Assembly (NCBI GenBank): GCA_016932555.1
Contig: JAFGCQ010000025.1
Location: 1-51,155, forward strand
Reading direction: 5' to 3'
Source: Candidatus Zambryskiibacteriota bacterium
Lineage (GTDB): Bacteria > Patescibacteriota > Minisyncoccia > Phycocordibacterales > WO2-35-19
DNA length: 51,155 nucleotides
The translations under genes were made by a program, and so were the position numbers. The notes beneath the pieces were generated by a model. The model had not been told where the DNA came from. It did not search any database and saw nothing but the letters and a program-made list of their open reading frames with translations. Below, piece by piece: positions 18,394 to 50,127 of the stretch; within the stretch, counting starts at the first letter, position 1; every line of letters begins with the position of its first letter.

Positions 18394-18441
18394 ATTACAA
18401 GGGAGAAGAGTTCCCCTTCTCCTTTGGGGATGTGGTGTAAT
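18394..18441 (-). repeat. dispersed palindromic repeat R3, copy A
   Basis: Minus strand ATTACACCACATCCCCAAAGGAGAAGGGGAACTCTTCTCCCTTGTAAT; similar to copies at 33156 and 49808. Confidence 0.85.
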
Positions 18442-19586
18442 CAAATTCCGTCTTTAATGATTTCTTTGATGCAGTTGGCAAATTGGGAAAGAGGAATAAT
18501 AGTCTGAGCATGAGTGATAGTGTTACGTACCATTACCGTATTTTCTAAAGCTTCTTTTTGGCCGATAATTAAAAGATATAAAGCTTCTGAATTATGAGCT
18601 GCTCCCATTTGGGTGCCTAATTTATCTTTAGTGATTGAATGTAAAACATTGGTTCCAGTTTTTTCTAATTCTCTTAGTACGGAAAAGCTTTTTAGTTTAG
18701 CTTCTGGGCCAAATTGCACTAGATAAAATTGTGGTTTAAATTCTCTAGCTTTAACTTTTTTAAGTTTTTTCTTTAGGTGGGCAGAAATATCTAAGATACA
18801 GCCCGGTGCATCTTTTTTATAGCCGATTTTTTTGGCTAATTTACTAAATCGAAAACCAAAAGCCAATTCTTCTCCATCTGAATTTATAGAAAATACAGTT
18901 TCAGTACCGATATCAGAATTACTAAAAAGTTTATGATCGACTTGATAAGGAATTTCAGTTGTTTCTAAAAATTCCAGTACTTCCTTGAAATGATTGCGGC
19001 TTTGTTCTGATAGAAAATCTATAGATTTTGGGCATTCTTTATAACATTCATTCTCATTTTCTCTTAAAATAGCAAAAATATCTTTTTTAAGAGTTTGACG
19101 CAAATTTGTGGGGAAATCATTAATATTCTTTCTGATAAAAGCAACTATCCTCTTTTGAAATTCTACCATTGATTCTTTATCGCCAACCGAATTAACATGG
19201 ATTTCCAGATTTTTATAGCCGATTTTGTTTAATATACTTAAAGCAGATTCTATGCAGAGACACTCACAAATGCTCTTGGTTGAACCTAAGCAAGCTAAAG
19301 AACCTTCTAGATAATTAGATTTTTTCTTCTCTTTAAGTCCTGGGAATGGTCGATCACAATAAATACAAACTGGCTGAGGTGAAGATATAAACTTATTATC
19401 AAAATATATACGTAAAAGAGCCACTTTTTCTACTAAATTTCTATATTCTCCAAGATTTTTTATTGAATCAAAATCTTGTTTTTCAATTTTTGGCGAGTTT
19501 ACTAGCCTGAAGCCGTAAAATCTGGCAATTTTATGAACTTCATTTATTTTTTCTAAATCTTTAACAGTGACTGTTTCACTATCCAT
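18441..19586 (-). CDS. divergent histidyl-tRNA synthetase-like protein (class II aaRS core degraded)
   Basis: IGYKNLEIHVNSVGD; YQVDHKLFSNSDIGTETVFSI in the GLDYYTRTVFE position; HisRS-like C-terminal anticodon-binding region. Confidence 0.65.
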   Translation of the reverse strand: MDSETVTVKDLEKINEVHKIARFYGFRLVNSPKIEKQDFDSIKNLGEYRNLVEKVALLRIYFDNKFISSPQPVCIYCDRPFPGLKEKKKSNYLEGSLACLGSTKSICECLCIESALSILNKIGYKNLEIHVNSVGDKESMVEFQKRIVAFIRKNINDFPTNLRQTLKKDIFAILRENENECYKECPKSIDFLSEQSRNHFKEVLEFLETTEIPYQVDHKLFSNSDIGTETVFSINSDGEELAFGFRFSKLAKKIGYKKDAPGCILDISAHLKKKLKKVKAREFKPQFYLVQFGPEAKLKSFSVLRELEKTGTNVLHSITKDKLGTQMGAAHNSEALYLLIIGQKEALENTVMVRNTITHAQTIIPLSQFANCIKEIIKDGI

Positions 19587-19603
19587 ATTTTCTTGCTAAT
19601 TTA

Positions 19604-20161
19604 TTAATCTGGTAAACCTGGCCAAAGATCAATTTTGTTTAATGGCAAAAGCCTTAAAATTGGACGACCAACTATATATTCTCGAGGTAAAGACCCCCAG
19701 ATTCTTGAATCAGAACTACTAGCTCTATTATCACCCATAACAAAATATTCATTTTCGCCTAAGATTACAGAAAAATCTTCGTTTTTGGTATAAGCTATAT
19801 AAGATTCATCTAAAACAATACCATTTGGGTTTTCTTTATTGAATATGGTGACAATTCCTTTGTTGATTTGAACGGTCTCTCTTGGGAAAGCAATGAGTCT
19901 TTTTATAAAAAACTTTGAAGGGTTATTGGGGTATCTTATAATGAGTACAGATTTGCGTCTGGGTTCTTCAAATCTTTTACTGAGTTGATCTACAATCAAA
20001 TAATCAGAATCTTCAAAAGTCGGATCCATAGAAGAACCAGATACTATATAGGGTTGAGCAATAAAAATACGGAATGGCACAATTATAATTAAAGCTAAAA
20101 TTGCGTATTTAATAAGCTCTTTAAAAGAATTTTTATTTTTTATCTGGGTTTCTTCATCCAT
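19604..20161 (-). CDS. lepB: signal peptidase I
   Basis: YIVSGSSMDPTFEDSDYLIVDQ, FFIKRLIAFPRETVQ, YFVMGDNRASSSDSR; preferred start MDEETQ. Confidence 0.93.
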   Translation of the reverse strand: MDEETQIKNKNSFKELIKYAILALIIIVPFRIFIAQPYIVSGSSMDPTFEDSDYLIVDQLSKRFEEPRRKSVLIIRYPNNPSKFFIKRLIAFPRETVQINKGIVTIFNKENPNGIVLDESYIAYTKNEDFSVILGENEYFVMGDNRASSSDSRIWGSLPREYIVGRPILRLLPLNKIDLWPGLPD

Positions 20162-20243
20162 TTTCCCTATTCTATTATAAAAAGCTTTGCTGCACAAATT
20201 TTTGAATAATGTATAATCTATCCATTATTAATATTTAAATTCG

Positions 20244-20867
20244 ATGTTTTATATCGTAGGTTTAGGCAATCCAGGAGAAGAGTATAAAGGCACTAGACAC
20301 AATACTGGACGAGAAGCAATATTATCTTTTGCTAAGAAATTAGATTTCCCGGATTGGAATTTTGACAGAAAATCCAATTCTCAAATATCAAAATCAAAAA
20401 TAGGTAAAGAGCCAGTGATTTTGATTTTGCCAGATACTTTTATGAATAAATCTGGCAATGCAATTTCTTATTTCATAAAACCTAAGACCGGCCTGCCTGC
20501 ACAGGCAGGCAAAAAGAAATCTCAAGAAAATTTAATAGTAGTTCATGATGATATCGATTTGGGTTTGGGTACTATAAAACTTTCTTATAACAAAGGTACG
20601 GGCGGACATAGGGGATTAGATTCTATCGTTAAAGCTGTGAAAACTAAAGAATTTATCAGATTAAGAATCGGCATTTCACCAGTTACTCCTAAAGGTAAAA
20701 TTAAAAAACCAATAGGAGAGAGAAAGGTCATTGATTTTATCTTGAGTAAATTCAAGCCAACTGAGCAAATTAACTTAAAAAAAGCTTTCAAAAAATCTGT
20801 TGAAGCTCTTGGGGTTATAATATTAGAAGGTCGTGATAAAGCTATGAATATCGCTAATCAACAATAA
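20244..20867 (+). CDS. pth: peptidyl-tRNA hydrolase
   Basis: YIVGLGNPGEEYKGTRHNTGR, TFMNKSGNAI, VVHDDIDLGLG, GTGGHRGLDSI. Confidence 0.96.
   Translation: MFYIVGLGNPGEEYKGTRHNTGREAILSFAKKLDFPDWNFDRKSNSQISKSKIGKEPVILILPDTFMNKSGNAISYFIKPKTGLPAQAGKKKSQENLIVVHDDIDLGLGTIKLSYNKGTGGHRGLDSIVKAVKTKEFIRLRIGISPVTPKGKIKKPIGERKVIDFILSKFKPTEQINLKKAFKKSVEALGVIILEGRDKAMNIANQQ
20492..20509. repeat. 18-bp palindromic repeat R1 in frame in pth (encodes LPAQAG)
   Basis: cctgcctgcacaggcagg; one-base difference from gyrB copy at 41514. Confidence 0.9.
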
Positions 20868-20947
20868 GTGTTGATAAATTGTCGCTTTTTCTATGATTAG
20901 GGGTATAATTAGAACATTACTAAAATATTAACAATTAATAAAAAATT

Positions 20948-21202
20948 ATGGCAAAATCTAATTCAGCATTTATGAAGCCAATGAACCTTAGTTCAGAACT
21001 TGAGGCAGTGGTCGGCAAAGGTCCTCTCCCACGATCGGAAGTAGTTAAGAAACTTTGGGCCTATATTAAATCAAAAAGCCTTCAGGACCCAAACAACAAG
21101 CGCAATATTAATGCTGATGAAAATTTAAAGAAAGTGTTTGGCGGCAAAGCCACTGTCAATATGTTTGAAATGACCAAACTCGTTTCTAAACACCTTTCAT
21201 AA
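20948..21202 (+). CDS. stand-alone SWIB/MDM2 domain protein
   Basis: PLPRSEVVKKLWAYIKSKSLQDPNNKRNINADENLKKVFGGKATVNMFEMTKLVSKHL. Confidence 0.9.
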   Translation: MAKSNSAFMKPMNLSSELEAVVGKGPLPRSEVVKKLWAYIKSKSLQDPNNKRNINADENLKKVFGGKATVNMFEMTKLVSKHLS

Positions 21203-21214
21203 AATTTAAATAAT

Positions 21215-21239
21215 AAAGCGCCTTCATGGCGCTTTTTTT
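21215..21239. terminator. Rho-independent terminator between convergent genes
   Basis: AAAGCGCC-ttca-TGGCGCTTTTTTT. Confidence 0.85.
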
Positions 21240-22338
21240 ATTTCTTATTTTCTTCTATATAAGAAAGAGTCATTTTTTGATCTTTTGGATCAAAGATGTT
21301 TATTTTAAAATTATAAGTTTTCCCAAGTTCCAATTTTTCACGAAGCTTTTCTTCTGTACCAAAATCGGAGATATGGACTAATCCTGCCACTCCTTCTTCA
21401 ATAGAAGCCAGGGCGCCATGTTTGTTAAATTTAATAATTACTCCGCTAACCAGATTATCTTTCTTGTATTTTTTAGATGCTTCAACCCAAGGATTGGGTT
21501 TCAAAGCTTTTATAGAAAGAGAAATTTTACCATCCTTAATTTCTATTACTTTAACTTTAATTTTTTCACCAACCTTAGTAAATTTATGAGGGTCGTCTAC
21601 TAAACTCCAATCAATTTCAGAAATGTGAACCAAACCTTCTAAACCTTCTTCAATCTTTACAAAAATACCAAAGTCTACAATACCGGTAACTTCTCCTTCT
21701 ATTTCATCACCTAAATTGTATTTATCTATTATCTTTTCTTTCTCACTGTTATCAAAATCTTTTTCAGAAAAAATAAGCTTACCTTCTTTAATATTGATAG
21801 CGATGATGGCCACTGAAAGATTCTGCCCAACTAATTTACGCAATTCTTCTAGAATTTTATCTTTATCTCCATCCGAGACTCTTGGATAATGCTCAGTTTT
21901 GAGTTGAGAGGCAGGTAAAAATCCGGTTATACCCTGCCAAGAAAGCATAAGGCCCCCCCGATTAGCCTCTTTAACTGGTAATTCAAAAATTTTCTTATCT
22001 CTGATAGCTTCTTCCGCTTCACTCCAGATTAGAGCCTGTTTGGCTTCTTTAAGAGATATTTCTATATAACCTTCTTCATTATCGGTTCCAACTATCTTGC
22101 CGGTAATACTATCACCAAGGTTTATTTTTTTGATAACATCACGAGCATTTATATATTCCCGACCGAATATAATTCCAGTACCCCACGGAAAGAGATCAAT
22201 ATAAACTGAATTTTTATCTATTGAGATGATTTTTCCTTCTACAATAGTACCTCTGGTGGGTGGTAGAATAGAATCATCTAAAATCTTAGACATATTTTCT
22301 CTTTTTTCTAAAGTCAATTCTTCTTTTTTTTTCAACAT
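21238..22338 (-). CDS. rpsA: S1-domain protein / 30S ribosomal protein S1
   Basis: Four S1 repeats (e.g. GDEIEGEVTGIVDFGIFVKIEEGLEGLVHISEIDW); start uncertain (22338 or 22293; ORF track 22428). Confidence 0.88.
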   Translation of the reverse strand: MLKKKEELTLEKRENMSKILDDSILPPTRGTIVEGKIISIDKNSVYIDLFPWGTGIIFGREYINARDVIKKINLGDSITGKIVGTDNEEGYIEISLKEAKQALIWSEAEEAIRDKKIFELPVKEANRGGLMLSWQGITGFLPASQLKTEHYPRVSDGDKDKILEELRKLVGQNLSVAIIAINIKEGKLIFSEKDFDNSEKEKIIDKYNLGDEIEGEVTGIVDFGIFVKIEEGLEGLVHISEIDWSLVDDPHKFTKVGEKIKVKVIEIKDGKISLSIKALKPNPWVEASKKYKKDNLVSGVIIKFNKHGALASIEEGVAGLVHISDFGTEEKLREKLELGKTYNFKINIFDPKDQKMTLSYIEENKK

Positions 22339-22345
22339 AACAAAT

Positions 22346-22414
22346 AAAAAAGTCCGTAAGCTTTTCCGTCGACTGGAAATTTCGGATGACGAAAGGTTAT
22401 GCTTTCGGAAAACT
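22346..22414 (-). promoter_or_regulatory. structured rpsA leader with alternative stems and T run
   Basis: Minus strand AGTTTTCCGAAAGC...GCTTACGGACTTTTTT, plus competing hairpin CGAAAG-cataac-CTTTCG. Confidence 0.4.
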
Positions 22415-22710
22415 ACTAATATAAACATTTTACTACTATTGCAAAATTATGCAACTAGCCCAAAGTATCAAAAGCAGTCTTTGTTAGATATTTTTATAAA
22501 CTGTATTGACTTATTTTAAGCAGATGCTATTATTGCATATGTAAGTGTTTAGTTTCTCTTGGTTTGTTTTGCGTATTTATAGCGCGAATACACAAGCGGG
22601 ACTTCGCTTGGTCGCGGTTATTTTTATGAACAAGGGGGAAATAAAAATTTTATTTTATCCGAGAGAAGTAGAAATAACAAAATTATTATAAAATAATTAA
22701 AGAATACGCA

Positions 22711-22968
22711 ATGAAAAAGCTTTTCGTAGGCAATTTGCCTTATAAAGCCACTGATACTGATCTTAAAGAACTTTTTGCCAAATACGGCGAAGTTTCTGAA
22801 GCAGTAGTCATTATGGACAAAGAAAGGGGACTTTCTAAAGGTTTCGGTTTTGTGACTTTTGCAAATGAATCCGAAGCAGATGCTGCTATTGAAGCTCTCA
22901 ATGGTAAAGAGCTTGAAGGTAGAGCTCTTACTGTAAACGAGGCTCGACCTCAAGAACCTCGCAGATAA
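22711..22968 (+). CDS. RRM-domain RNA-binding protein
   Basis: KLFVGNLPYKATDTDLKELFAKYGEV ... RGLSKGFGFVTF (RNP2/RNP1). Confidence 0.95.
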   Translation: MKKLFVGNLPYKATDTDLKELFAKYGEVSEAVVIMDKERGLSKGFGFVTFANESEADAAIEALNGKELEGRALTVNEARPQEPRR

Positions 22969-22978
22969 TCTGACACAA

Positions 22979-23002
22979 AACCCCGCAAGAGCGGGGTTTT
23001 TG
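22979..23002 (+). terminator. Rho-independent terminator after RRM gene
   Basis: AACCCCGC-aaga-GCGGGGTTTTTG. Confidence 0.9.
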
Positions 23003-23010
23003 TTATTCAG

Positions 23011-23050
23011 ATTATACCACACATTAAAAGCCAAAGGGCATCTTTGACAT
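23011..23050 (-). repeat. 40-bp direct repeat, left copy
   Basis: attataccacacattaaaagccaaagggcatctttgacat. Confidence 0.97.
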
Positions 23051-23671
23051 TTTTTCTTTGTATAATTTTATAGTTTCGTCTTTAAACTGTTCTGTTCCAC
23101 CAAATATTTCTTTAAGAAACAGAGTGTAAACTACAGTATTATTTCTATCAAAAATAAAATCATTAAAACTGCTCCAATCATACTTTTCTGGACTTTCGGT
23201 TAGTCGGTCTTTTACAGGATTCATATGTATATAAGAAGAAACTAACATTAATTGAGAATTTGTATTAACATAAACAGATTTAAATTGATCTTGGAAAACC
23301 TGACCTACTCTTTTGTATTTTAAATTTATATATTTTGAAAAGCTTGTGCTTAATTTAGCTACTAGTTTTGAGATAGATTCTTCTCCACATTGTTCAATTA
23401 AAATATGAAAATGATTTGGCATTAAACAAAATGCATGTATTTTAAAATAATTTGGTTTAAAACTTCTTAATCTTATTCGTGATTTGGGGGATTTAATAAT
23501 TTCACAATTAGCTAAATCATCTTTATCTATTCCTAAAACCAAACCTAATCTAAAAAGAAAAGCTCTGTAATCTTGTTTATCTCTAAATAGAGTTTCTTTA
23601 TTGTTGCCTCGATTGTATATGTGATAAATACAACCTGGTGCAAAATTTTTATAATCCCTGTTATTCACATT
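23024..23671 (-). CDS. REP-associated tyrosine transposase (IS200-like Y1, RAYT)
   Basis: CIYHIYNRGNNKETLF, IHAFCLMPNHFHILIEQ (HUH), GQVFQDQFKSV, YIHMNPVK; likely GTG start (VNNRDYKNFAPG); ORF track 23698. Confidence 0.9.
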   Translation of the reverse strand, partial: NVNNRDYKNFAPGCIYHIYNRGNNKETLFRDKQDYRAFLFRLGLVLGIDKDDLANCEIIKSPKSRIRLRSFKPNYFKIHAFCLMPNHFHILIEQCGEESISKLVAKLSTSFSKYINLKYKRVGQVFQDQFKSVYVNTNSQLMLVSSYIHMNPVKDRLTESPEKYDWSSFNDFIFDRNNTVVYTLFLKEIFGGTEQFKDETIKLYKEKMSKMPFGF

Positions 23672-23674
23672 TAA

Positions 23675-23714
23675 ATTATACCACACATTAAAAGCCAAAG
23701 GGCATCTTTGACAT
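23675..23714 (-). repeat. 40-bp direct repeat, right copy
   Basis: attataccacacattaaaagccaaagggcatctttgacat. Confidence 0.97.
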
Positions 23715-23730
23715 ATAATAAGGAGTTGTT

Positions 23731-24210
23731 ATGATAAAGAAAATGGCAAAGAGGATTTTAGAATTAATATTATTGATATTGGTTGTTATTGTAGTCAGTT
23801 TTTTCTTTTCGGTTGATTTTTCTAGGCAAAATCAAACTGAAATTAATAATCCTAATCAAGTCAGAATTTTAAAAATAAGAAATCAGGTTTTAAATATTGA
23901 AATCGCAGATACAGATATTAAAAAGATTATCGGTCTCTCTAACAGAGAGGATCTAAAAAAAGAAGAAGCTTTACTTTTTGTGTTTGAAACTCCAGGACTT
24001 TACAGTTTTTGGATGAAAGATATGAATTTCCCTATAGATATAGCTTGGATAGATGAAAATAAAAAAATAATTCACATAGAAAGTAAAGTTTTACCATCAA
24101 CTTATCCAAAAATTTTTGTTTCTAACTCTCCAGCAAAATATGTTTTGGAGACCCAAGCCGGTTTTTTTGAAGATTCAGAAATTAAAATTGGCGACTTAGC
24201 AGAATTTTAA
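23731..24210 (+). CDS. membrane-anchored DUF192 protein
   Basis: GLSNREDLKKEEALLFVFETPGLYSFWMKDMNFPIDIAWID. Confidence 0.88.
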   Translation: MIKKMAKRILELILLILVVIVVSFFFSVDFSRQNQTEINNPNQVRILKIRNQVLNIEIADTDIKKIIGLSNREDLKKEEALLFVFETPGLYSFWMKDMNFPIDIAWIDENKKIIHIESKVLPSTYPKIFVSNSPAKYVLETQAGFFEDSEIKIGDLAEF

Positions 24211-24280
24211 TTTTTAATCAATCAAAAATGTTACAGGGCAAAGACTTTTAGGCGAGACTATTTACATGTACTAAAATTTG

Positions 24281-24300
24281 TTATCTACAGCTTATCCACA
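24281..24300 (+). promoter_or_regulatory. two tandem DnaA-box-like 9-mers upstream of RNR
   Basis: TTATCTACA gc TTATCCACA; same orientation, 11-bp period. Confidence 0.5.
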
Positions 24301-24403
24301 GGAGCAAGGAGGTATTTTAAGTTGTAAAATGATGAACATTAATTGCCAAATTTTTAAAAAATTTGGCAAAAAATTACTAAATTTTTAACTTTTTTATAAA
24401 AAT

Positions 24404-26728
24404 ATGCCTAAAAAATCCTCCCAAAAGTCCAATTCTAGAAAAACCAGAAAATATGCTATGGAAGATTTTATTAAAAAAGTTCAAAAAAGAGACGGGGCTT
24501 TAGTAAAGTTTGATTTTGAAAGAATTGTAACGGCTATAGAAAAGGCAATGAAGGCGGCTAGGGAAGGATCCGAAGGTGAAGCTAGATTGGTTGCTCATAA
24601 AATTTTAGCTGACTTGGTAAGAATTTCTAAGAAATTTAAAAATTTCGTACCGACAGTTGAAGGTATTCAAGATACTGTCGAAAAAGAACTTATGGCCTCT
24701 GAATATCCTAATACTGCTAAAGCTTTTATTTTGTATAGAGCTGAAAGGACTAAAATTAGAGAACAAAGCGACCTGATATCAGAAGATGCTAAAACTAAAA
24801 TAAAAGAAAGTAGCAAATATTTTAAAAATTCATATCAAGAATTTATTTTTTATCAATTTTACTCAAGATGGAGAGATGAGTTTGGCCGTCGCGAAACTTG
24901 GATAGAAACTATTGATCGTTTTATGGATTATATGAAAGAAAACATGGGTTCTAAACTTACTGATGAAGAATATTCTGATATCAAAGAAGCTATTTTAAAT
25001 CAAGAAATTTGTCCTTCAATGCGCCTTTTATGGGCAGCTGGTAAGGCGGCTCGTAATAGTAATGTCTGTGCTTATAACTGTGCTTATTTAGCACCAACTT
25101 CTTGGAGAGATCTTTCGGAAATAATGTATATCTCTATGTGTGGTGCAGGTTGTGGTTTTTCAGTTGAACCAGAAAATATAGGCAAGTTTCCGCAAATTCA
25201 AAAACAAACGGGTAAAAAAGCACCAAAAATTGTAGTAGAAGACAGCAAGATTGGTTGGTGTGAATCTTTTGTTAAAGCCTGCGAAGCCTGGGAAAACGGT
25301 ATGGATGTGGAAATTGATTATTCAAAAATCAGACCAAATGGAGCCAAGCTACAAACTATGGGGGGTAGAGCTTCTGGTCCAGACCCTCTTAAAGATTTAA
25401 TGATTTTTACTAAAAGAAAACTATTAGCTAAACAAGGACGGCGGCTTTCTTGTTTAGATTTACACGATATTATTTGCCAAATTGGCCTTATTGTAGTAGC
25501 TGGTGGTGTTAGACGTTCAGCTCTTATTTCTCTCTCTTCTCTTGACGATATTGAAATGAGAGATGCTAAAAAAGGTGCTTTTTGGCAAACTGAAGGTCAG
25601 CGTTCTATGGCTAACAATTCTGCAGTCTATGAATCTAAACCGTCGGCTGAGGAATTTTTGGAGGAATGGACAGCTTTAGTAACTTCTCATTCTGGAGAGC
25701 GCGGTATTTTTAATCGAGGCAGTTTGTCAAACCAAATGCCAGAAAGGCGCTGGAAATTAGTCAAAGATGCCAAACAAATCGGTATGAATCCCTGTGGGGA
25801 AATTTATTTGCAATCCAAGCAGTTTTGTAATTTAACTTCTATTGTAATCAGACCCAAAGATACTATGGAAGATTTGAAAAAAAAGATGCGCTTAGCTACT
25901 GTTGTTGGTACCTATCAAGCTACTTTAACCAATTTCGAATATATTTCTAAAGAATGGAAGGAACATTGCGAACAAGAACAGCTTCTAGGAGTATCTCTCA
26001 CTGGTTATTTTGATAATAAAATAATACGTGAAGAGAAAAACCTGCGAGAGTTACGCGACGAGGGCATAAAAACTAACAAAAAATATGCCAAAAGATTTGG
26101 CACTAATGAATCAACTGCTTTAACCTGCATCAAACCGCACGGCAATTCGGGTCAACTTCTAGGTGTTGGTTCTGGTATGCATACTTGGTATGCTAAATAT
26201 TATATTCGTCGAGTAAGAATCTCCGCTACTGATCCTTTAATGCAACTTGCTAAAGATCAAGGTATTCCAATTCATCCAGAAGTAGGTTATTCAACATCAA
26301 ATTCCGCTACTATGGTTTTAGAATTTCCCTGCAAAGCGCCAGAAGGAGCGGTTGTTAATAGTGACGTAAATGCTCTAGAAATGTTAGAAGAATGGAAGAA
26401 AATAAAAACAAACTTTACTGAGCATAATCCTTCAATTACAATCTATGTTGGAGATAATGAATGGATTTCGGTAGCAAATTTTGTTTATAACAACTGGGAT
26501 ATTGTTGGCGGACTTTCATTCTTACCTCGGGATAATCATATTTATAAGCTGGCTCCTTATGAAGAAATCAGTAAAGAAGAATACGATCGGCGAATGAAAG
26601 AACTTGGTTCAATAGACTTTTCCAGACTTTTAATTTACGAAAAATCAGATCAAACAATTGGTGCTAAAGAGTTGGCCTGTGTTGGCGGTACTTGTGAAAT
26701 TGGCGATTTTGTGAAAATGGAAAAGTAA
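24404..26728 (+). CDS. nrdJ: adenosylcobalamin-dependent (class II) ribonucleoside-triphosphate reductase with ATP-cone
   Basis: KRDGALVKFDFERIVTAIEKAM (ATP cone); MYISMCGAGCGFSVEPENIGKFPQIQ (RTPR-like); GMNPCGEI. Confidence 0.9.
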   Translation: MPKKSSQKSNSRKTRKYAMEDFIKKVQKRDGALVKFDFERIVTAIEKAMKAAREGSEGEARLVAHKILADLVRISKKFKNFVPTVEGIQDTVEKELMASEYPNTAKAFILYRAERTKIREQSDLISEDAKTKIKESSKYFKNSYQEFIFYQFYSRWRDEFGRRETWIETIDRFMDYMKENMGSKLTDEEYSDIKEAILNQEICPSMRLLWAAGKAARNSNVCAYNCAYLAPTSWRDLSEIMYISMCGAGCGFSVEPENIGKFPQIQKQTGKKAPKIVVEDSKIGWCESFVKACEAWENGMDVEIDYSKIRPNGAKLQTMGGRASGPDPLKDLMIFTKRKLLAKQGRRLSCLDLHDIICQIGLIVVAGGVRRSALISLSSLDDIEMRDAKKGAFWQTEGQRSMANNSAVYESKPSAEEFLEEWTALVTSHSGERGIFNRGSLSNQMPERRWKLVKDAKQIGMNPCGEIYLQSKQFCNLTSIVIRPKDTMEDLKKKMRLATVVGTYQATLTNFEYISKEWKEHCEQEQLLGVSLTGYFDNKIIREEKNLRELRDEGIKTNKKYAKRFGTNESTALTCIKPHGNSGQLLGVGSGMHTWYAKYYIRRVRISATDPLMQLAKDQGIPIHPEVGYSTSNSATMVLEFPCKAPEGAVVNSDVNALEMLEEWKKIKTNFTEHNPSITIYVGDNEWISVANFVYNNWDIVGGLSFLPRDNHIYKLAPYEEISKEEYDRRMKELGSIDFSRLLIYEKSDQTIGAKELACVGGTCEIGDFVKMEK

Positions 26729-26790
26729 GAATTTACTTGTCCACCAAAGTTTTAAGGTTGTGGAAAAAATTTTTGATATAATTAATTATT

Positions 26791-32459: not shown

Positions 32460-33143
32460 ATGACAATTGATATTAAAGCGGAAAAAAGGGAAAAAATCGG
32501 TAAGCTAAAATCCTTGAGAAACCAGGGCTTTATGCCAGCCGTTTATTACGGTCATAAAAAAAATTCAACCCCTATCCAAATCAAAAAAAATGATTTTATA
32601 AAAGTTTGGAAAAATGCTGGCGAATCTACAGTTGTTAAACTTCATGCCCCAGAAGGCGATCTTGAAGCCTTAATCCATGCTGTAGATATAGATCCTATAA
32701 GCGACGAACCAAGGCATGCTGATTTTTATATATTTGAAAAAGGTCATAAAGTTGAAATTGCAGTACCACTAGAATTCGTAGGTGTTTCTCCGGCAGTTAA
32801 GGAATTGGGCGGTAATCTGATGAAAATTTTACATGAGATGGAAATTAAGGCTGATCCTGCAAACTTGCCGCAAAAAATTGAAGTTGATATTTCAGTGATT
32901 ACCGAGCTTGAAGGCCAAATTTTGGCTAAAGAAATAAAACTTCCTGAAGGTGTTGAACTTATGGAAAATCCCGAAGAAGTAATTGCTACTGTAGCTACAC
33001 CTCGGGAAGAGCCAGTGGAAGAAGAGCCAGAAGCCGATTTGTCTTCAATTGAAGTTGAAAAGAAAGGCAAAGAAGATGAAGATGAGAGTACTACTTCCGC
33101 TGAAGGTTCTAGCGAATCAAAGGGGGGAAAGAAAGAGGAGTAA
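32460..33143 (+). CDS. rplY: 50S ribosomal protein bL25 (CTC form)
   Basis: RNQGFMPAVYYG, PISDEPRHADFYIFEKGHKVEIAVPLEFVG. Confidence 0.93.
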   Translation: MTIDIKAEKREKIGKLKSLRNQGFMPAVYYGHKKNSTPIQIKKNDFIKVWKNAGESTVVKLHAPEGDLEALIHAVDIDPISDEPRHADFYIFEKGHKVEIAVPLEFVGVSPAVKELGGNLMKILHEMEIKADPANLPQKIEVDISVITELEGQILAKEIKLPEGVELMENPEEVIATVATPREEPVEEEPEADLSSIEVEKKGKEDEDESTTSAEGSSESKGGKKEE

Positions 33144-33155: not shown

Positions 33156-33203
33156 ATTACACCACATCTCAAAAGGAGAAAGATTCCTCTTCTCCTTTTT
33201 TCT
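33156..33203 (+). repeat. dispersed palindromic repeat R3, copy B (also acts as rplY terminator)
   Basis: attacaccacatctcAAAAGGAGAAagattcctcTTCTCCTTTTttc; 10-bp perfect stem plus T run. Confidence 0.87.
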
Positions 33204-37581: not shown

Positions 37582-37654
37582 GCCACCTTAGCTCAGTTGG
37601 TAGAGCTCCCGTTTTGTAAACGGGTGGTCGTCAGTTCGAGTCTGACAGGTGGCT
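37582..37654 (+). tRNA. tRNA-Thr (anticodon TGT)
   Basis: Acceptor gccacct/aggtggc, D-loop TAGCTCAGTTGGTAGAGC, anticodon loop ttTTGTaaa, T-arm TTCGAGTC; CCA not encoded. Confidence 0.96.
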
Positions 37655-42903: not shown

Positions 42904-42930
42904 ATACGTAGAGTAATATTAAATGTATTT

Positions 42931-42948
42931 GTAGCGATGCATCGCTAC
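42931..42948. repeat. 18-bp perfect palindrome R2, copy 1
   Basis: gtagcgatgcatcgctac between gyrB and TrpR-like stop codons. Confidence 0.95.
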
Positions 42949-42963
42949 GTTTTAATAAATAAA

Positions 42964-43374
42964 TTAGATATGGAATTTCCCTTGTCTGACAAATCTGTAT
43001 CTTTTACGACCAACTTTAGGAGGAATAATAAAGTAAATTTTTTCCAACATATCAATAATGCTCTCCCTGTTTTTTCTCATTAAAGAAACCAAATATTTGT
43101 ATTCTCCTTTTTCGTATTTTTCAGCCATGCGGCCAATGGTGGAAGTACTGACTGACAAAGTATCTGCTATGACTCTATCTGGAATTTTTTCTATCATCAT
43201 ATAAAGGATGCCTATCCTCTTAGCAAACATAATACGTTCAGTGGGGTAAAAGAATTCTTTTATAAAATTTTTGATATATTTTTTAGACCTAGATAAATCG
43301 ATAATTTCGATAAACTTATCAAAAATTTTCTTGAAATCTTCGTCTTTTATTTTTCTTTTAGAAACTTGAGACAT
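42964..43374 (-). CDS. TrpR/YerC-like helix-turn-helix regulator
   Basis: FYPTERIMFAKRIGILYMMIEKIPDRVIADTLSVSTSTIGRMAEKYEKG. Confidence 0.75.
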   Translation of the reverse strand: MSQVSKRKIKDEDFKKIFDKFIEIIDLSRSKKYIKNFIKEFFYPTERIMFAKRIGILYMMIEKIPDRVIADTLSVSTSTIGRMAEKYEKGEYKYLVSLMRKNRESIIDMLEKIYFIIPPKVGRKRYRFVRQGKFHI

Positions 43375-43376
43375 TT

Positions 43377-43402
43377 TTCTAATACTACTTTCTAATACTA
43401 CT
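43377..43402. repeat. 2 x 13-bp tandem repeat in TrpR-like gene leader
   Basis: ttctaatactact x2. Confidence 0.9.
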
Positions 43403-43414
43403 ATTATACAAAAT

Positions 43415-43432
43415 GTAGCGATGCATCGCTAC
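43415..43432. repeat. 18-bp perfect palindrome R2, copy 2, upstream of TrpR-like gene
   Basis: gtagcgatgcatcgctac next to minus-strand TATAAT (tttTGTATAATAG). Confidence 0.95.
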
Positions 43433-43516
43433 AAATGATTTGACTTATATAATGATTAACGTATAATCTCGGGAGGAACAGTCCTTAAATAATCAAATGT
43501 ATGGGAGGTAGAAAAC

Positions 43517-44119
43517 GTGATAAGAGAAATCTGTGTATGGATTGTCACTTTTATGATGATAGTTTTTGGGTCTCTGTATGCCTACCAAGTTCGGAAACGA
43601 GAGATAAATCCTGCACTCTCAACATGGATTATTTTTCTTCTTGGGACAGGACTAAGCCTCACGACCTATATAATTGCCGAAAAACACGATCTCCGTTCTG
43701 GAATTTTGAACATGACAGATACCATGGCAGTTATAATCGCACTTGTTGCCATTATTTTGTACGGAAATCGCAATATGCGCTTCAGACCGTTCGAGAGATG
43801 GTATCTCTGTGGTGTAGCAGCAATTGTCGCCTATGGATTATGGTCTGGGGATGCCTGGGGTTCTAACATATTTACGCAAGTTCTTATTGCCATAGGATAC
43901 CTTCCGACAATTCAAAAGTTGCTCACGGAAAAACGAAATACGGAATCATTTACCGCGTGGGGTTGCAATAATATCGCTAGCCTTATCGCGCTGTACCCGG
44001 CTATTGTCAACGGTAATTCCCTTGCTGTCATGTACGCTTCTAGGTCTTTCGTTCTTACTTTGAGTACTATAGGACTAATGGCTTATTACGAGCTCCGCTT
44101 ACAAAAAAAGCAGCCATAA
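43517..44119 (+). CDS. multi-pass membrane protein of unknown function
   Basis: GTG start with GGGAGG SD; about 6-7 hydrophobic segments; preferred over overlapping ORF 43501..43866. Confidence 0.75.
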   Translation: MIREICVWIVTFMMIVFGSLYAYQVRKREINPALSTWIIFLLGTGLSLTTYIIAEKHDLRSGILNMTDTMAVIIALVAIILYGNRNMRFRPFERWYLCGVAAIVAYGLWSGDAWGSNIFTQVLIAIGYLPTIQKLLTEKRNTESFTAWGCNNIASLIALYPAIVNGNSLAVMYASRSFVLTLSTIGLMAYYELRLQKKQP

Positions 44120-44148
44120 ATATAGGCTGCATTAAACAAACACACTAT

Positions 44149-44184
44149 ACCTATCAGGGATGAGACCTCTGATAGGTTTTTGTT
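44149..44184 (+). terminator. Rho-independent terminator
   Basis: ACCTATCAG-ggatgagacct-CTGATAGGTTTTTGTTTTTTT. Confidence 0.88.
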
Positions 44185-44187
44185 TTT

Positions 44188-45966
44188 TTATTTCTTCTCT
44201 TTGATTTCTTTGTTGAGGAGCTCGAGGAATTTATCGAGAGACATAGCGCCGAGCTTTTCGGTGCGGGATTCGACGGTAACTTCGTCTGACTTGATCTCGT
44301 TGTCGCCGATAACGAGATAATAGGGAATTTTTTGAGTTTTAACTTCGCGAATTTTTTTACCCAGTGATTCGTTTAATTCATCGATTTCGGCACGAATGTT
44401 GTTTTCTCTTAGTTTTTTTAAGATTTTTTCAGCATATTTGAAATGATCTTCGCCAATCGGCAAAACTTTGACTTGAACAGGTGAGAGCCAGAAAGGAAAA
44501 GCACCTGCATAATGTTCAATGAGAAGACCGATGAATCGCTCGAACGAGCCAAATAGCGCGCGATGAAGCATATAAGGCCTTTCTTCTTGTCCTTTAGAGT
44601 TTATGAAAACCATTTTAAATCTCTCAGGAATATTAAAATCAAATTGCAAAGTTGAACATTGCCATTCTCTACCAAGTACGTCTTTAACTTTAAAATCAAG
44701 TTTGGGACCATAAAATACAGCGCCGCCGATATCTTTTTGATAATTTAAACCTTTCTCTTTGGCTACTTTTTCCAAAATATTTTCTGTAAACTTCCAACCT
44801 TTATCATCACCTGCATATTTATCAACTTTGGGATCACGAACAGATAAATAAACATTTACATCTTTAATATCAAAGCCAAAAGATTTATAAATAAACAAAA
44901 TAAAATCTACCACTTTTCCTAATTCTTCTTCTACTTGATCTTTACTACAGATTATATGAGCATCATCTTGAGTAAAACCTCTAACTCTAGTTAGACCAGA
45001 TAATTCTCCTTTTTTCTCATATCTGTAAACTGTACCACATTCCGCCCAGCGCATTGGAAGATCACGATATGACTTTGGCTCGTTTTTGTAGATTTGAACA
45101 TGGAAGGGGCAGTTCATCGGCTTAAGCAGGTATTCTTCGGAAACTTCAGCTTGCTTGCCCTGCTGGCGCTCTTCCAGAGTCTGACCGACTTCCATAGGCG
45201 GATACATAGAGCTATTATAAAAACCCCAGTGGCCTGAAGTCTCCCAGAGCACACGGTTGCCTATATGCGGAGTTCTCACTAGGTTATAGCCGTTTTTTAG
45301 GTGTTCCGCATACCAAAAATCTTCAATAATCCTCCAAAGCAAAGCGCCTTTGGGGTGCCACAGTGGCAAACCGGCACCGACTATTTCATCTATATGAAAA
45401 AGATCTAAATCTTTTCCAAGTTTTCTATGATCCCTTTTTTTAGCTTCCTCTCGATTTTTAATATATTCATCTAATTCTTTTTTATTCTCAAAAGCAAGTC
45501 CATAAATACGAGTTAGCATTTTATTTTGCTCACTACCCAACCAATAAGCGCCAGCAATACGATCAAGCTTCCAACTGTCAAGGGGAACCTTTGACATATT
45601 GTTGACATGGCCGCCTCGGCAAAGATCGGTAAATTTACCCGAGGTATAAAAGCTTATTTTTTCGCCAGCTTCTTCCAAATCTTTTATGAGTTCGAGTTTG
45701 TATTCATTATCTTTGAAAAACTCTTTGGCTTCTTTAATATCCACTTCCTTGCCTTCAATTTTATCCCAAGTTTTTAGGATTTCGCGCATCTTCTTCTCGA
45801 TTTTCTCTAAATCTTTTTTGGTGATAGGCTCTGGAAGGTCAAAATCATAATAAAAGCCGTTTTCAATAACCGGTCCAATAGTATGTTTGGTATTAGGGTA
45901 CAATTCAAGCACAGCCGCTGCCATTAAATGAGCCAAAGAATGCCTGATTTTTTCAATATCTTTCAT
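44188..45966 (-). CDS. thrS: threonyl-tRNA synthetase lacking N-terminal TGS domain
   Basis: Starts directly at IRHSLAHLMAAAVLELYPNTKHTIGPVIENGFYYDF; LLKPMNCPFHVQIYKN, RVRGFTQDDAHIIC. Confidence 0.95.
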   Translation of the reverse strand: MKDIEKIRHSLAHLMAAAVLELYPNTKHTIGPVIENGFYYDFDLPEPITKKDLEKIEKKMREILKTWDKIEGKEVDIKEAKEFFKDNEYKLELIKDLEEAGEKISFYTSGKFTDLCRGGHVNNMSKVPLDSWKLDRIAGAYWLGSEQNKMLTRIYGLAFENKKELDEYIKNREEAKKRDHRKLGKDLDLFHIDEIVGAGLPLWHPKGALLWRIIEDFWYAEHLKNGYNLVRTPHIGNRVLWETSGHWGFYNSSMYPPMEVGQTLEERQQGKQAEVSEEYLLKPMNCPFHVQIYKNEPKSYRDLPMRWAECGTVYRYEKKGELSGLTRVRGFTQDDAHIICSKDQVEEELGKVVDFILFIYKSFGFDIKDVNVYLSVRDPKVDKYAGDDKGWKFTENILEKVAKEKGLNYQKDIGGAVFYGPKLDFKVKDVLGREWQCSTLQFDFNIPERFKMVFINSKGQEERPYMLHRALFGSFERFIGLLIEHYAGAFPFWLSPVQVKVLPIGEDHFKYAEKILKKLRENNIRAEIDELNESLGKKIREVKTQKIPYYLVIGDNEIKSDEVTVESRTEKLGAMSLDKFLELLNKEIKEKK

Positions 45967-45975
45967 AACTAAATA

Positions 45976-48900
45976 TTATAATTTTTTTGCTTTTTCGGCA
46001 ATCAGAGTTTTTTCACCATTGCGCTCAGAAACTCGTGCCTTAACCGCAATACAATAGTTAGGATTAAAAACATCTCTAAATTCTTGCAGAACTCTAGGAA
46101 AAACTACCATTTCAATATCATCAGTTAAATCAGCAAATTTTATAAAAAGCATTCTTTCGTTGCTCTTGGTTAAAATATTACGAATTTCTTCTATAAGACC
46201 ACCTATTATTACTATATCATTTTCTTTAGAGTTTGATTTTATTTTTTTAACAGTAATTTTTTGGTTTTGGAGTTTATTTTTAAATTGATCTAAGGGGTGG
46301 CCAGAAATATATAATCCCAAAAATTCCTTTTCCCAGGAAAGTTTTTGAGCAGAAGTGGCAGGATTAGCTTCTCGTAGATGTAGAGGTGAATATTTTCCCG
46401 AAGCGCTGAGAGCAGAAAAAAGTGAATTTTGACTATCATTTCCAACCGCTTCTTTATTATATTCTAAAAGTAAATCTAAATTAGCTAAAAGCCACCCTCG
46501 CTCGCCAAAAGCATCTATGGCTCCGCTTTTAATAAGTGCTTCAAGCGATTTTTTGTTTAAATTATGATCTTGGATTCTTAACAGAAAATCTTCCAAAGAA
46601 TTAAATCTACCCTTAGCTTTACGGTTTGCGGTAATAATGGAGGAAATACTTTCCCCAAAATTTTTAATTGTCATTAATCCAAATCTAATTGTTTCTGGCT
46701 TGCTTGGTGAAGATTTTAACAAATTAGGATCCTTTTTAACTAGAGTGAAATCAGAAAAGCTTTCATTTATATCAGGCGGCAATATTTCAATACCCATGCG
46801 TTTGCATTCGGCAACAGTATAAGCCACTTTTTCGGTATCACCAGATTCGGCCGAAAGCACCGAGGCCATATATTCACCGGGAAAATTGGCTTTTAGGTAA
46901 GCGGTTTGATACGCTACTCGACCATAAGATACCGAATGAGCTTTATTGAAGCCATAAGCAGCAAAAGGCTCTATCCAGCTCCAAATTTGACGGGCTTTTT
47001 TTTCACTCCATTTTGAATGTTCAATACAACCTTGAATAAATTTTTCTTTCTGTTTAGCCATTTCTTCAGGAATTTTTTTTCCGACTGCTTTGCGGAATTT
47101 ATCTACTTCGCCCCAAGTATAACCGGCTAAATTATGTGCCATCATTAAAAGATCATCTTGATAAACCAAAATACCATAAGTTTTTTTGAGGATTGGCTCT
47201 AGCGCTAGATCCATATATTTAATTTTTCCCGGATTGTGCTTGCGCTCAATATAGTCAGGGATAAATTGCATTGGTCCTGGCCGATAGAGTGCCACCATCG
47301 CATTAATATCATGAATAGTAGTAGGCTTGAGCTCAACTAAAAATCGCGTCATACCGTCACCGTTTAATTGAAAAAGATCTTCAGTTTCGCCCCGAGCTAA
47401 CATTTCAAAAGTTTTTTTGTCGTCTATGGGCATATTATCAAAATCAATTTCCACATTTTTGGTTTTTTTCGCGAGTTTAATTGTATTGGCGATAATAGTT
47501 AGATTTTTAAGTCCTAAGAAATCAAACTTTAGAAGGCCGGCACCGTTTTCATCAACGCTATACATGTCATATTGGGTAATAATACCCTCACCTTTAGGAT
47601 CATACTGAAGCGGAGTAAAATTAGTTAAATCCGATGGAGATATAACAACTCCAGCAGCATGCACACCAATATGTCTGGCACAACCTTCAATTTTTTTTGC
47701 CATGTCGATAATTTTTTTGGAATCATTGTCTGTTTTATAAAGCTCGACAAGTTCAGGAACTTCAGAAAGCGCCTTGTCTATCGTCATGGGAAAACCCTGA
47801 GAACCAAAAGGTATCAGTTTGGCTATTTTATCTCCTTGAGCATAAGAAAAGCCTAAGGCTCTGGCTGTGTCACGCACACTGCCGCGAGCCATCATAGTAC
47901 CAAAAGTCCCGATTTGAGCCACATTTTTTTCTCCATACTTGCGCTTAGCGTATTCAATCATTTCGTCTCTTCGATCTTTGGCAAAATCCATATCAATATC
48001 GGGTGCACTGGGACGATCAGGATTTAGAAATCTTTCAAAAGGAATTTCATATTCAAGAGGATTTAAATTAGTGATACTTGACACATAAGTCACAAGTGAA
48101 CCGGAAACTGAACCTCTAATATTAGTAAGTATCCCGTTTTCATGCGCATAGTTTAAAAGATCAGCAACCACTAAAAAATAAGGTGAATAACCTTTATCTT
48201 TTATCACTTTGAGTTCATATTCTAATCGTTCTATCACTTCTTTACTTTTTGGTAAATTTCTTTCTTCGAGACCTTTATAAGCCAAATAACGAAGTTCTTC
48301 ATCATGAGTGCGACCAGAAGCAGTTTCAATATAAGGGAAAGACCATTCTCCTAATTTGAGTTCCAAATTACAAAGCCCTGTTATTTTTTGATTATTAAAA
48401 ATCGCTTCCGGCAAATCTTCAAATCTTTTTTTCATTTCATCTACAGAAAGAAAAGAAAAGTCTTCATTTTCATCATTCCAATTACTTTTATCACCTTGCA
48501 TCATGCCTTGACCAACCGCCATAAGAGTTTCTCTGACCTCGCGGTCTTCGGGATGTAAATAATAAACATTATGGTTTGCTACAATTGGTACATCCTCTTC
48601 TTTGGCAAAGTTGGCTAATTTTTCCATATAATTATTATGGTTGGCTAATTCTGGATGTTTGGTTATTTCAATGTAAAAATCTAAAGATTCTTCTTCTGAA
48701 AATATTTTTTTGTATTTTTCGATAAGTTCTTTAGCTAGCTCTGTATTATTACCCCTAAAAGCAGTTGAGATATCACCACTCCAAGATGGAGAGATACAGA
48801 TAAGTCCTTCATGATATTTTTCTAAAAGTTCAAAATCAATACGTGGTTTATAATAAAAACCTTCTAAATAAGAAGCTGTTACTAATTTTAAAAGATTTTT

Positions 48901-49197
48901 GTAGCCAATTTCATTTTTACACAACAAAACTAATCTGTATCTTTCTTTATCTACACCGGCTTGCTTGTCATGTCGAGTTCGACCGGCTAGATAAGCGTCA
49001 ACGCCTATAATAGGTTTAATGCCTTGTTTCTGACACTCTTTATAAAATTCAATCGCTCCGTAAAGGTTTCCATTGTCAGTCAGTGCCAACGCTTCCATTT
49101 CTGCCTCCTTAGCCGCATTGACTAACTCCGGTATTTTGGGTAATGCCTGAAGTAAGCTGTAATGGCTGTGTGTATGTAAGTGAGTAATTTTAGACAT
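45976..49197 (-). CDS. dnaE: DNA polymerase III alpha subunit
   Basis: PHP start THLHTHSHYSLLQALPKI; PDIDMDFAKDRRDEMIEYAKRKYG; ALYRPGPMQFIPDYIERKH. Confidence 0.97.
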   Translation of the reverse strand: MSKITHLHTHSHYSLLQALPKIPELVNAAKEAEMEALALTDNGNLYGAIEFYKECQKQGIKPIIGVDAYLAGRTRHDKQAGVDKERYRLVLLCKNEIGYKNLLKLVTASYLEGFYYKPRIDFELLEKYHEGLICISPSWSGDISTAFRGNNTELAKELIEKYKKIFSEEESLDFYIEITKHPELANHNNYMEKLANFAKEEDVPIVANHNVYYLHPEDREVRETLMAVGQGMMQGDKSNWNDENEDFSFLSVDEMKKRFEDLPEAIFNNQKITGLCNLELKLGEWSFPYIETASGRTHDEELRYLAYKGLEERNLPKSKEVIERLEYELKVIKDKGYSPYFLVVADLLNYAHENGILTNIRGSVSGSLVTYVSSITNLNPLEYEIPFERFLNPDRPSAPDIDMDFAKDRRDEMIEYAKRKYGEKNVAQIGTFGTMMARGSVRDTARALGFSYAQGDKIAKLIPFGSQGFPMTIDKALSEVPELVELYKTDNDSKKIIDMAKKIEGCARHIGVHAAGVVISPSDLTNFTPLQYDPKGEGIITQYDMYSVDENGAGLLKFDFLGLKNLTIIANTIKLAKKTKNVEIDFDNMPIDDKKTFEMLARGETEDLFQLNGDGMTRFLVELKPTTIHDINAMVALYRPGPMQFIPDYIERKHNPGKIKYMDLALEPILKKTYGILVYQDDLLMMAHNLAGYTWGEVDKFRKAVGKKIPEEMAKQKEKFIQGCIEHSKWSEKKARQIWSWIEPFAAYGFNKAHSVSYGRVAYQTAYLKANFPGEYMASVLSAESGDTEKVAYTVAECKRMGIEILPPDINESFSDFTLVKKDPNLLKSSPSKPETIRFGLMTIKNFGESISSIITANRKAKGRFNSLEDFLLRIQDHNLNKKSLEALIKSGAIDAFGERGWLLANLDLLLEYNKEAVGNDSQNSLFSALSASGKYSPLHLREANPATSAQKLSWEKEFLGLYISGHPLDQFKNKLQNQKITVKKIKSNSKENDIVIIGGLIEEIRNILTKSNERMLFIKFADLTDDIEMVVFPRVLQEFRDVFNPNYCIAVKARVSERNGEKTLIAEKAKKL

Positions 49198-49313
49198 GAT
49201 TTGTACCTTGATATTAGCATATTAGCTTTATTCACATGCATATTGAATTATTTAAGAAAATTGTTATTATAAACATTAGGCAGTACCTCAGGTTTCAATA
49301 GCACATTGATGAA

Positions 49314-49397
49314 ATGGCAAACGGAAGAAACGGAGAAATGCTTATGATTGTATTTAATTTTACACTGAAAAAAGAAGCGGGGAAATCTGGATCATGA
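49314..49397 (+). CDS. possible 27-aa small ORF (MANGRNGEMLMIVFNFTLKKEAGKSGS)
   Basis: Lies in a promoter-to-terminator unit between dnaE and rnhB; no homology recognised. Confidence 0.2.
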   Translation: MANGRNGEMLMIVFNFTLKKEAGKSGS

Positions 49398-49441
49398 TGG
49401 GTCTGGCGTGACCTATATCAAGCACCTAACCGAGGTGCAAA

Positions 49442-49473
49442 AGGTCCCACAAAATATCGTGGGACCTTTTTTA
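49442..49473 (+). terminator. Rho-independent terminator
   Basis: AGGTCCCAC-aaaatatc-GTGGGACCTTTTTT. Confidence 0.9.
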
Positions 49474-49494
49474 TTTTGAGGTAAAATATATAGT

Positions 49495-50127
49495 ATGAAA
49501 TTAATTATTGGCATAGATGAGGCAGGGAGGGGATCTTTGGCGGGACCATTAACTTTATCAATATTCGCCGCTCCGCAAAATCTGCGAAACAAGCTTATAA
49601 AAATCCTGGGCGGAAAAATCAAAGATTCCAAAAAAATTTCACCAGAAAATCGAGAAAAAATTTACAAAGAATTTTTGAGATTAAGAAAAGCAAATCAGAT
49701 AGATTTTAATGTAGCTCACACTACAAACATAATAATTGATAGAAGAGGAATCAGCTATGCAACTAAATTAGGAATAAAAAAGTGCCTGAATAAATTAGAA
49801 CACACTAATTGCGGGAAGGAGGGTTCCCCTTCTTCTTTTGAAAAATGTGGTGTAATTAGGTTGGACGGGTTACTAAAGGCGCCTGAGAAATATAAAAACC
49901 AAAAAACTATTATTGGGGGAGATGAAAAAAATATTTTTATCGCTTGCGCTTCCGTAGTTGCTAAAGTCCGCCGTGACCGATTAATGTGTCGTTATGCCAA
50001 AAAATTTTCTCAATATTCTTTTGAAATTCATAAAGGATATGGTACTGCTCTTCACTATAAACTTCTCAAAAAGCACGGTCTTTCTATTCTCCACCGCAGA
50101 TCATTTTTGAAGAAATTGATCAAGTAA
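49495..50127 (+). CDS. rnhB: ribonuclease HII
   Basis: IGIDEAGRGSLAGPL, KDSKKISPENREKIY; IACASVVAKVRRD; HKGYGTALHY. Confidence 0.95.
   Translation: MKLIIGIDEAGRGSLAGPLTLSIFAAPQNLRNKLIKILGGKIKDSKKISPENREKIYKEFLRLRKANQIDFNVAHTTNIIIDRRGISYATKLGIKKCLNKLEHTNCGKEGSPSSFEKCGVIRLDGLLKAPEKYKNQKTIIGGDEKNIFIACASVVAKVRRDRLMCRYAKKFSQYSFEIHKGYGTALHYKLLKKHGLSILHRRSFLKKLIK
49808..49856 (-). repeat. dispersed palindromic repeat R3, copy C, in frame inside rnhB
   Basis: Minus strand attacaccacatttttcaaaagaagaaggggaaccctccttcccgcaat; encodes NCGKEGSPSSFEKCGVI on plus strand. Confidence 0.82.

Follow-up and report, generated by a model that had tools for sequence, protein, structure and literature searches.

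The window analysed here comprises 51,155 nucleotides (nt) of contig JAFGCQ010000025.1 from a Candidatus Zambryskiibacteriota bacterium (assembly GCA_016932555.1). It contains three short dispersed palindromes, R3-A, R3-B and R3-C, and, at 23 kb, a gene encoding a REP-associated tyrosine transposase (RAYT) which is flanked by a repeat of its own. Systems of RAYTs and repetitive extragenic palindromes (REPs) are among the commonest repeats of bacterial genomes. The locus raises the question whether the R3 copies are part of such a system and, if so, which transposase is responsible for them; the initial annotation had named the 23-kb RAYT. With a probability of roughly 0.75, R3 copies are REP-like, non-autonomous and part of a RAYT system (TnpA-REP, a Y1/HuH transposase acting on single strands), and belong to the class of a RAYT clade represented on contig C22 and not to that of the 23-kb RAYT. 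In the following, G000 is the genome of the window (607,940 bases) and G001 to G008 are its relatives; contigs are abbreviated with C and loci with L.

R3 copies and their head sequence

All three R3 copies are present where the initial annotation had placed them, on the same strands. R3-A (18399..18441, minus strand), with the head ATTACACCACAT and the palindrome core AGAAGGGGAACTCTTCT, is located directly at the stop codon of a probable hisS gene (18441..19586, minus strand), for which HGTP_anticodon was the sole domain detected and homologues are found in the genus. R3-B (33156..33198, plus strand; head and palindrome AAAAGGAGAAAGATTCCTCTTCTCCTTTT) lies 13 nt 3' of rplY (32460..33143, plus strand), encoding ribosomal protein L25/TL5. 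R3-C (49812..49856, minus strand; head and palindrome core AGAAGGGGAACCCTCCT) is positioned in frame within rnhB (49495..50127, plus strand), the gene for RNase HII (PF01351, E 6.3e-29; aligned with 19 homologues), where it encodes the peptide CGKEGSPSSFEKCGVI; a decayed, mirrored head is found at its far end.

The exact 12-nt head ATTAYACCACAY occurs 10 times in the 607,940 bases of the genome, compared to a single occurrence of the reversed control pattern, which confirms the excess over chance expected earlier. With at most one mismatch, six matches were found in the window versus a mean of 0.80 after shuffling, and none of 100 shuffles reached six. One head match, on C28, is without a palindrome and is probably a promoter. 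R3-B and the RAYT-flanking repeat are identical at exactly 16 of their first 20 positions, the number counted by eye in the initial annotation, and the notion that both are related, the head being conserved while the hairpin arms vary, is supported by a shared head in front of differing palindromes. Rfam gave no match over R3 and the RAYT repeat; its sole match in the window was a tRNA at 37582-37654.

RAYT genes and their flanking palindromes

Four Y1_Tnp genes are encoded in G000. Three of the gene products, on C3, C16 and C22, carry an N-terminal RDYK motif, and each of these three genes has a palindrome of its own on either side (GTCAAAGATGCCCTTTGGC on C3, ACAAGGGGCGCCCTTGT on C16 and AAGAGGGTTCCCCTCTT on C22). 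The 23-kb RAYT (23024..23668, minus strand; PF01797, E 2.5e-10) is a Y1/HuH transposase of 214 amino acids when read from a GTG, with the open reading frame (ORF) continuing to 23698. Its HuH residues (HFH) and the conserved tyrosine are intact in the alignment, in which NHFH and YIHxNP are invariant. It reached 66.5 bits with NF047646 REP_Tyr_transpos (NCBIfam), under the cut-off of 80, and a profile of its family gave TnpArep (4er8, E 0.0057) as the sole match in the PDB. Its closest named relatives are encoded in metagenome-assembled genomes of Ca. Zambryskibacteria and Ca. Nomurabacteria, which places the organism of the window in the Patescibacteria.

Upstream of the gene, the head of the flanking repeat (23675..23713, plus strand) provides the extended -10 sequence TGTGGTATAAT, which is read on the minus strand and precedes the start codon by 6 nt. 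The second copy, at the 3' end of the gene (23011..23049, plus strand), is in direct orientation to the first and codes for the last eight residues of the RAYT (C-terminus MSKMPFGF) and the stop codon. Four of the head matches outside the window belong to further full copies of this 39-nt repeat (control matches: 0). Three of these are identical to it and the fourth has one mismatch, so that the repeat forms a dispersed family of its own. Its tail (23011-23049 and solo copies) ends in TTTGACAT, a perfect -35 hexamer pointing outward; solo copies might therefore create promoters.

Upstream and downstream flanks match (score of at least 17) in 33 of 42 RAYT loci, a fraction slightly inflated by a few loci that were fetched twice, with a 95th percentile of 13.5 for pairs from mismatched genes. 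The same was observed for 52 of 71 more distant RAYTs. Each RDYK-type RAYT of the genus with readable flanks carries a matching palindrome on both sides, and this palindrome is different for each RAYT. A second RAYT lineage with the N-terminus MRYENFA (L014, L083, L087, L094, L103 and L080; G000 to G006) has no matching flanks and is followed by the same gene, apparently gatB, in five genomes. The HuH histidine and the tyrosine are lost in the G001 protein of this type (L080), and this copy therefore looks catalytically dead. MRYENFA-type genes were rejected as part of the palindrome system, their flanks being unmatched and lacking a head.

Assignment of R3 to a RAYT class

For class assignment, the central 17 nt of each palindrome were compared with the flanks of the RAYTs, and random 17-mers and random palindromes served as controls. 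R3-A, R3-B and R3-C score 13-14/17 with the C22 RAYT and 14-16/17 with two RAYTs of the C22 clade in related genomes (L089 of G004 and L095 of G007). The latter scores exceed all random controls (maximum 14) with the exception of that of R3-B, which at 14 is a tie. Going by these core matches, R3 copies are probably older members of the C22-clade class. The score of 13-14/17 with the RAYT of their own genome would accordingly indicate old copies or spreading by an earlier version of the C22 RAYT.

That R3 was mobilised by the 23-kb RAYT, as proposed in the initial annotation, is very unlikely. The 23-kb RAYT shares the head and the A-run with R3 and is encoded in the same window, but the head is common to several RAYT types and is for this reason not diagnostic of the RAYT responsible. 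The R3 cores match its palindrome only at chance (9-11/17; the 95th percentile of the controls is approximately 12, and controls rarely rise above 13-14), the C22 clade fits better, and a RAYT of the matching palindrome class does exist on C22. Moreover, the 23-kb RAYT has solo copies of its own, four of which score 16-17/17 with it. Further solo copies identified with a covariance model belong to the C22 class (on C9, C13 and C14) and to the C16 class (C8:4273, 17/17). Since solo copies fall into the 23-kb, C22 and C16 classes, every RDYK-type RAYT of the genome has solo relatives.

Element number in relation to RAYT number

The number of elements follows that of RDYK-type RAYTs, as would be expected if R3 copies are non-autonomous elements of a RAYT system. 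Covariance-model matches, which count both strands and hence include some elements twice, numbered 18, 1, 8, 7, 22, 60, 0, 31 and 4 in G000 to G008, and RDYK-type RAYTs numbered 3, 0, 2, 2, 3, 5, 0, 2 and 0 in the same order (Spearman 0.875, P 0.002; nine related genomes). Copy number was thus compared across genomes with and without RDYK-type RAYTs, the comparison suggested by the initial annotation. Equal abundance in relatives lacking them, which the initial annotation had named as a refuting result, was not seen, albeit with only nine genomes: G006 and G001, in which the gatB-side type is the only RAYT, gave no match and one weak match, respectively.

The covariance model was used because counts of the bare head take in promoters. 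The ATTATACC variant of the head is the complement of an extended -10 promoter, and some of its bare matches in other genomes are therefore probably promoters; matches without a palindrome were seen in G002, G003 and G008. Over 60 genomes, the bare-head count was only weakly related to the presence of any Y1 gene (rho 0.28, P 0.028; with versus without, P 0.13) and was dropped as a proxy for the elements, being too crude.

Architecture of the element

In the element, which is about 40-60 nt long, the 12-nt head is followed after about 5 nt by a short run of A and then by a palindrome of approximately 17-25 nt with a 3-nt loop. Along the reading direction of the RAYT gene, the order is palindrome, approximately 10 A/T-rich bases, head complement and start codon. 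In 12 of 17 RDYK-type RAYTs, TATAAT ends at a distance of exactly 6 nt from the start codon, which suggests that the head complement serves as extended -10 box of a leaderless RAYT transcript. The downstream flanking copy has the same orientation as the upstream copy, and some downstream copies have heads at both ends. Many solo copies likewise carry a second, mirrored head (L110, L111, L112, L315 and L327). GTAG or CTAC was found within 60 nt of just 3 of 48 elements, and the only GTGG is part of the head complement, 3' of the palindrome and separated from it by several nt. In G019, a genome of the same order but a different family, an abundant 43-nt element (ATTACACCACACTTGGAAGCCGAGCTTCCAAGTGTGGTGTAAT; e.g. 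L184 and L185) is symmetrical over its whole length and has heads at both of its ends. Thirty head matches were counted in this genome and heads are found near both of its RAYTs; the head is therefore older than the family studied here.

The hairpin that the initial annotation described behind the head holds up by comparison across 35 related elements, but is only weakly indicated by folding energy for R3-A, R3-C and the RAYT repeat. Folding of the single DNA sequences gave z values of -1.4 (R3-A), -1.0 (R3-C) and -0.9 (RAYT repeat); only R3-B, with -4.4, is strong by this measure. Among the 35 elements, 91% of the cells pair, a percentage that is inflated, as the palindrome was centred where pairing was best. 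The number of double changes is more reliable: 91 cells were changed on both sides compared to 27 in shuffles, with a covariation score of 0.57 versus 0.17, although these changes are not independent events, as the palindrome classes are few and inherited.

Alternatively, the dispersed palindromes could be intrinsic terminators of the usual kind, with a head that is simply the -10 motif of a promoter. R3-B, an A-run, hairpin and T-run after rplY, has the appearance of a terminator, and R3-A is situated at the hisS stop codon; the presence of TGTGGTATAAT at a distance of 6 nt from the start codon, seen in 12 of the 17 RAYT genes of the RDYK type, and the existence of bare ATTATACC matches without palindrome are in line with a promoter motif. 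Nevertheless, this explanation is improbable. Terminators would not be expected in frame inside rnhB, mnmA, leuS and argS, nor would their palindromes be specific to a class and match RAYT flanks, or mirrored heads be present on many of them. Furthermore, 29 of 47 compiled elements have ATTAC instead of ATTAT, which makes a poor -10.

Different palindromes at the same sites in related species

R3-A and R3-C occupy sites at which the palindrome differs between species. In rnhB, G004, G005, G007 and G008 share the nucleotide position of the head as well as its flank. A decayed head (ATTAGAACACAC) is found there in G000 and G003, and the rnhB of G006 has no element. The palindromes behind the head are GAAGAAGGGGAACCCTTC in G004 and G007, ACAATGGGCACCATTGT in G005, ACAATGACGGCCATTGT in G003 and CCAAGGGTGACCCTTTG in G008, and those of G003, G004, G005 and G007 match a RAYT flank in their own genome at 17/17. 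Where the unrelated palindromes GAAGAAGGGGAACCCTTC and ATTACAATGGGCACCATTGTAAT occupy the same rnhB site, the identity of the flanks is 79-82%. G000 and G005 each have an element at the 3' end of hisS, starting at the same nucleotide; the former carries R3-A and the latter an element of a different class. G004 and G006 are without an element there. The mnmA gene carries the 23-kb class in G000, the class of the own RAYT L104 in G005, a palindrome close to the own RAYT L097 in G007 and a close variant in G004, for which no matching RAYT was found. In leuS and argS, in-frame elements of differing classes, some of which match RAYTs of their own genomes, have slightly shifted offsets between genomes.

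The fit of solo palindromes is closer with RAYTs of their own genome than with RAYTs from the other genomes: only 12 of 40,320 label permutations reached the observed sum, in a test that does not control for relatedness between the genomes.

Two observations concern further elements in these loops. In mnmA of G007 (L202), a second in-frame element of the AAGGGGAACCCTT type is located further along and is absent in G004 (flanks 90% identical); as a clean pair of empty and occupied sites it was rejected, the loop being too variable for a junction. In the argS loop of G002 (L355) and G007 (L363), two different palindromes lie adjacent to each other in frame, which may represent stacking of elements.

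Three processes could lead to such sites. Resident RAYTs may overwrite palindromes in place, with the shared heads acting as fixed docking sequences, so that conserved sites, several of which encode protein loops in essential genes, would be converted to the class of the RAYT resident in the genome; we consider this possible, but propose it only tentatively. Repeated independent insertion into permissive spots, without any replacement, comes close to an even chance. The offsets of the leuS and argS elements, which vary by genome, and the variable length of the loops fit such insertions, which in frame could survive only in tolerant loops. Both genes were for this reason rejected as proof of replacement in place, as differing offsets make independent insertions likely. 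In rnhB, the identical position and flank of the head in four genomes, with decayed heads in two others, is not easily reconciled with repeated insertion given that the palindrome differs, and the same applies to the exact head position shared by G000 and G005 at the hisS end; by inspection, no obvious common target was found 5' of the heads. Overwriting is thus best supported by rnhB and the hisS end, repeated insertion by leuS and argS, and the two need not exclude each other.

A change of the palindromes by compensated point mutation or by hairpin-templated loop flips is unlikely to account for the orthologous sites in general. Such changes were observed on a small scale: L157 and L159 (flanks 94% identical) differ by three changes in the palindrome centre only, one of them a compensated pair, and the loops of L150 and L160 are in opposite orientation (GAA and TTC). 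Both cases can be explained by mutation or hairpin-templated inversion. The unrelated GAAGAAGGGGAACCCTTC and ATTACAATGGGCACCATTGTAAT at the same rnhB site are hard to explain in this way, and mutation gives no reason why the new palindrome should match the resident RAYT. At another site, the G007 solo copy L158 is located where G005 carries a palindrome-RAYT-palindrome arrangement, which looks like the gain or the loss of a RAYT gene at a site marked by a single element.

Proposed mechanism

If R3 copies are non-autonomous elements of the C22-clade class, the RAYT would recognise its own palindrome plus the shared head in single-stranded DNA, by analogy with experimentally studied TnpA-REP proteins (PMC8266576), and might cleave beside the recognised copies, thereby spreading or rewriting them. 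The head would have a second role as -10 box of the RAYT gene. Insertions presumably survive between genes or, if in frame, in permissive loops of housekeeping proteins, and an occupied site could later receive a palindrome of the class of the resident RAYT.

Several points weigh against this reading. No transposition event was observed, and the copy number is low, with approximately 12 solo copies in the 608 kb of G000. The R3 cores reach only 13-14/17 with the C22 RAYT of their own genome. For several solo copies of the GTCAAAGGGCGCCTTTGAC class in G004 and G007, the better fit is with RAYTs of G005 and G002 and not with those of their own genome, and the elements of G008 have no matching RAYT in that genome. 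The family sample is composed of nine genomes, some of which are incomplete.

Comparison with known systems

REP/RAYT systems (REPtron, TnpA-REP) are described for Proteobacteria (Nunvar 2010, PMC2817692; PMC8266576). Common to these and the elements described here are a Y1/HuH transposase gene flanked by palindromes specific to it, short-loop palindromes behind a conserved head, dispersed solo copies, a RAYT 3' end that can lie inside the repeat, and an apparent coevolution and correlation with the presence of RAYTs. A GT(A/G)G tetranucleotide adjoins the palindrome in the known systems, in contrast to the 12-nt head ATTAYACCACAY of the elements studied here; flanking copies are inverted there and direct here, and hundreds of copies (typically over 100 per genome) stand against tens. 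The present elements are furthermore AT-rich, their head doubles as RAYT -10 box and they are found in the Patescibacteria, bacteria that are very small and depend on a host. As the GT(A/G)G tag, the inverted flanks and the high copy number are lacking, the element is named a REP-like RAYT-associated repeat and not a GTAG REP.

In the REP orthoswitch of Pseudomonas and Stenotrophomonas, orthologous RAYT genes are associated with different REP classes, and new classes may partly replace old ones (Nunvar 2013, PMC3686654), similar to the differences reported here. The switch there concerns the RAYT gene, and old copies are expected to decay (PMC3686654), whereas the differences reported here are between palindromes at orthologous solo sites, some of them within coding genes, and a match with a RAYT encoded in the same genome is frequent. 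Rickettsia palindromic elements (PMC10969869) resemble those described here as in-frame palindromes in unrelated housekeeping genes of a reduced genome, but are approximately 150 bp long, with copies in unrelated genes (PMC10969869), compared to about 40-60 bp, a dedicated RAYT and differences at the same site. Tagged palindromes inside genes are also known from GTAG/CGTC-tagged REPs, which were described for several species and of which many lie in genes with roles in replication and repair (Di Nocera 2013, PMC3733652); their tag is a different one, and CGTC repeats are without a dedicated transposase, which the elements here possess. IS200/IS605 elements share the Y1 transposase and the subterminal hairpins, which have the same strand orientation at the two ends. 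They differ from the present loci, where the protein has approximately 210-225 amino acids and matches REP_Tyr_transpos, and where several own-palindrome copies per genome and many solo copies are found. No TnpB was noticed at the RAYT loci that were read, although no search aimed at TnpB was made.

No report of RAYT-linked palindromes in the candidate phyla radiation (Patescibacteria) was found in the open-licence literature. As far as this literature shows, the occurrence in Patescibacteria, the head as RAYT -10 box and the class differences at fixed solo sites are new. A RAYT-linked palindrome system with another head and another arrangement of the flanks would thereby be added to a phylum of tiny, reduced genomes, and such a system would be seen to reshape loops of tRNA synthetases and other housekeeping proteins. 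The genus provides natural before-and-after pairs, i.e. the same site with alignable flanks, a different palindrome and a different resident RAYT. These pairs make replacement in place versus fresh insertion directly testable, which bears on the spread of REPs and on the change of their class.

Other features of the window

Two further repeats were noted in the window. A nearly perfect 27-nt inverted pair (ATTTGTAGCGATGCATCGCTACGTTTT; 42927-42953 and 43410-43436), each arm of which contains the palindrome TGTAGCGATGCATCGCTACA, brackets a gene encoding a Trp-repressor-like protein (42964-43374; PF01371, E 1.9e-8). A 169-nt direct repeat (8666-8834 and 8978-9146), the copies of which are 70% identical, is located within an ORF at 7885-9363.

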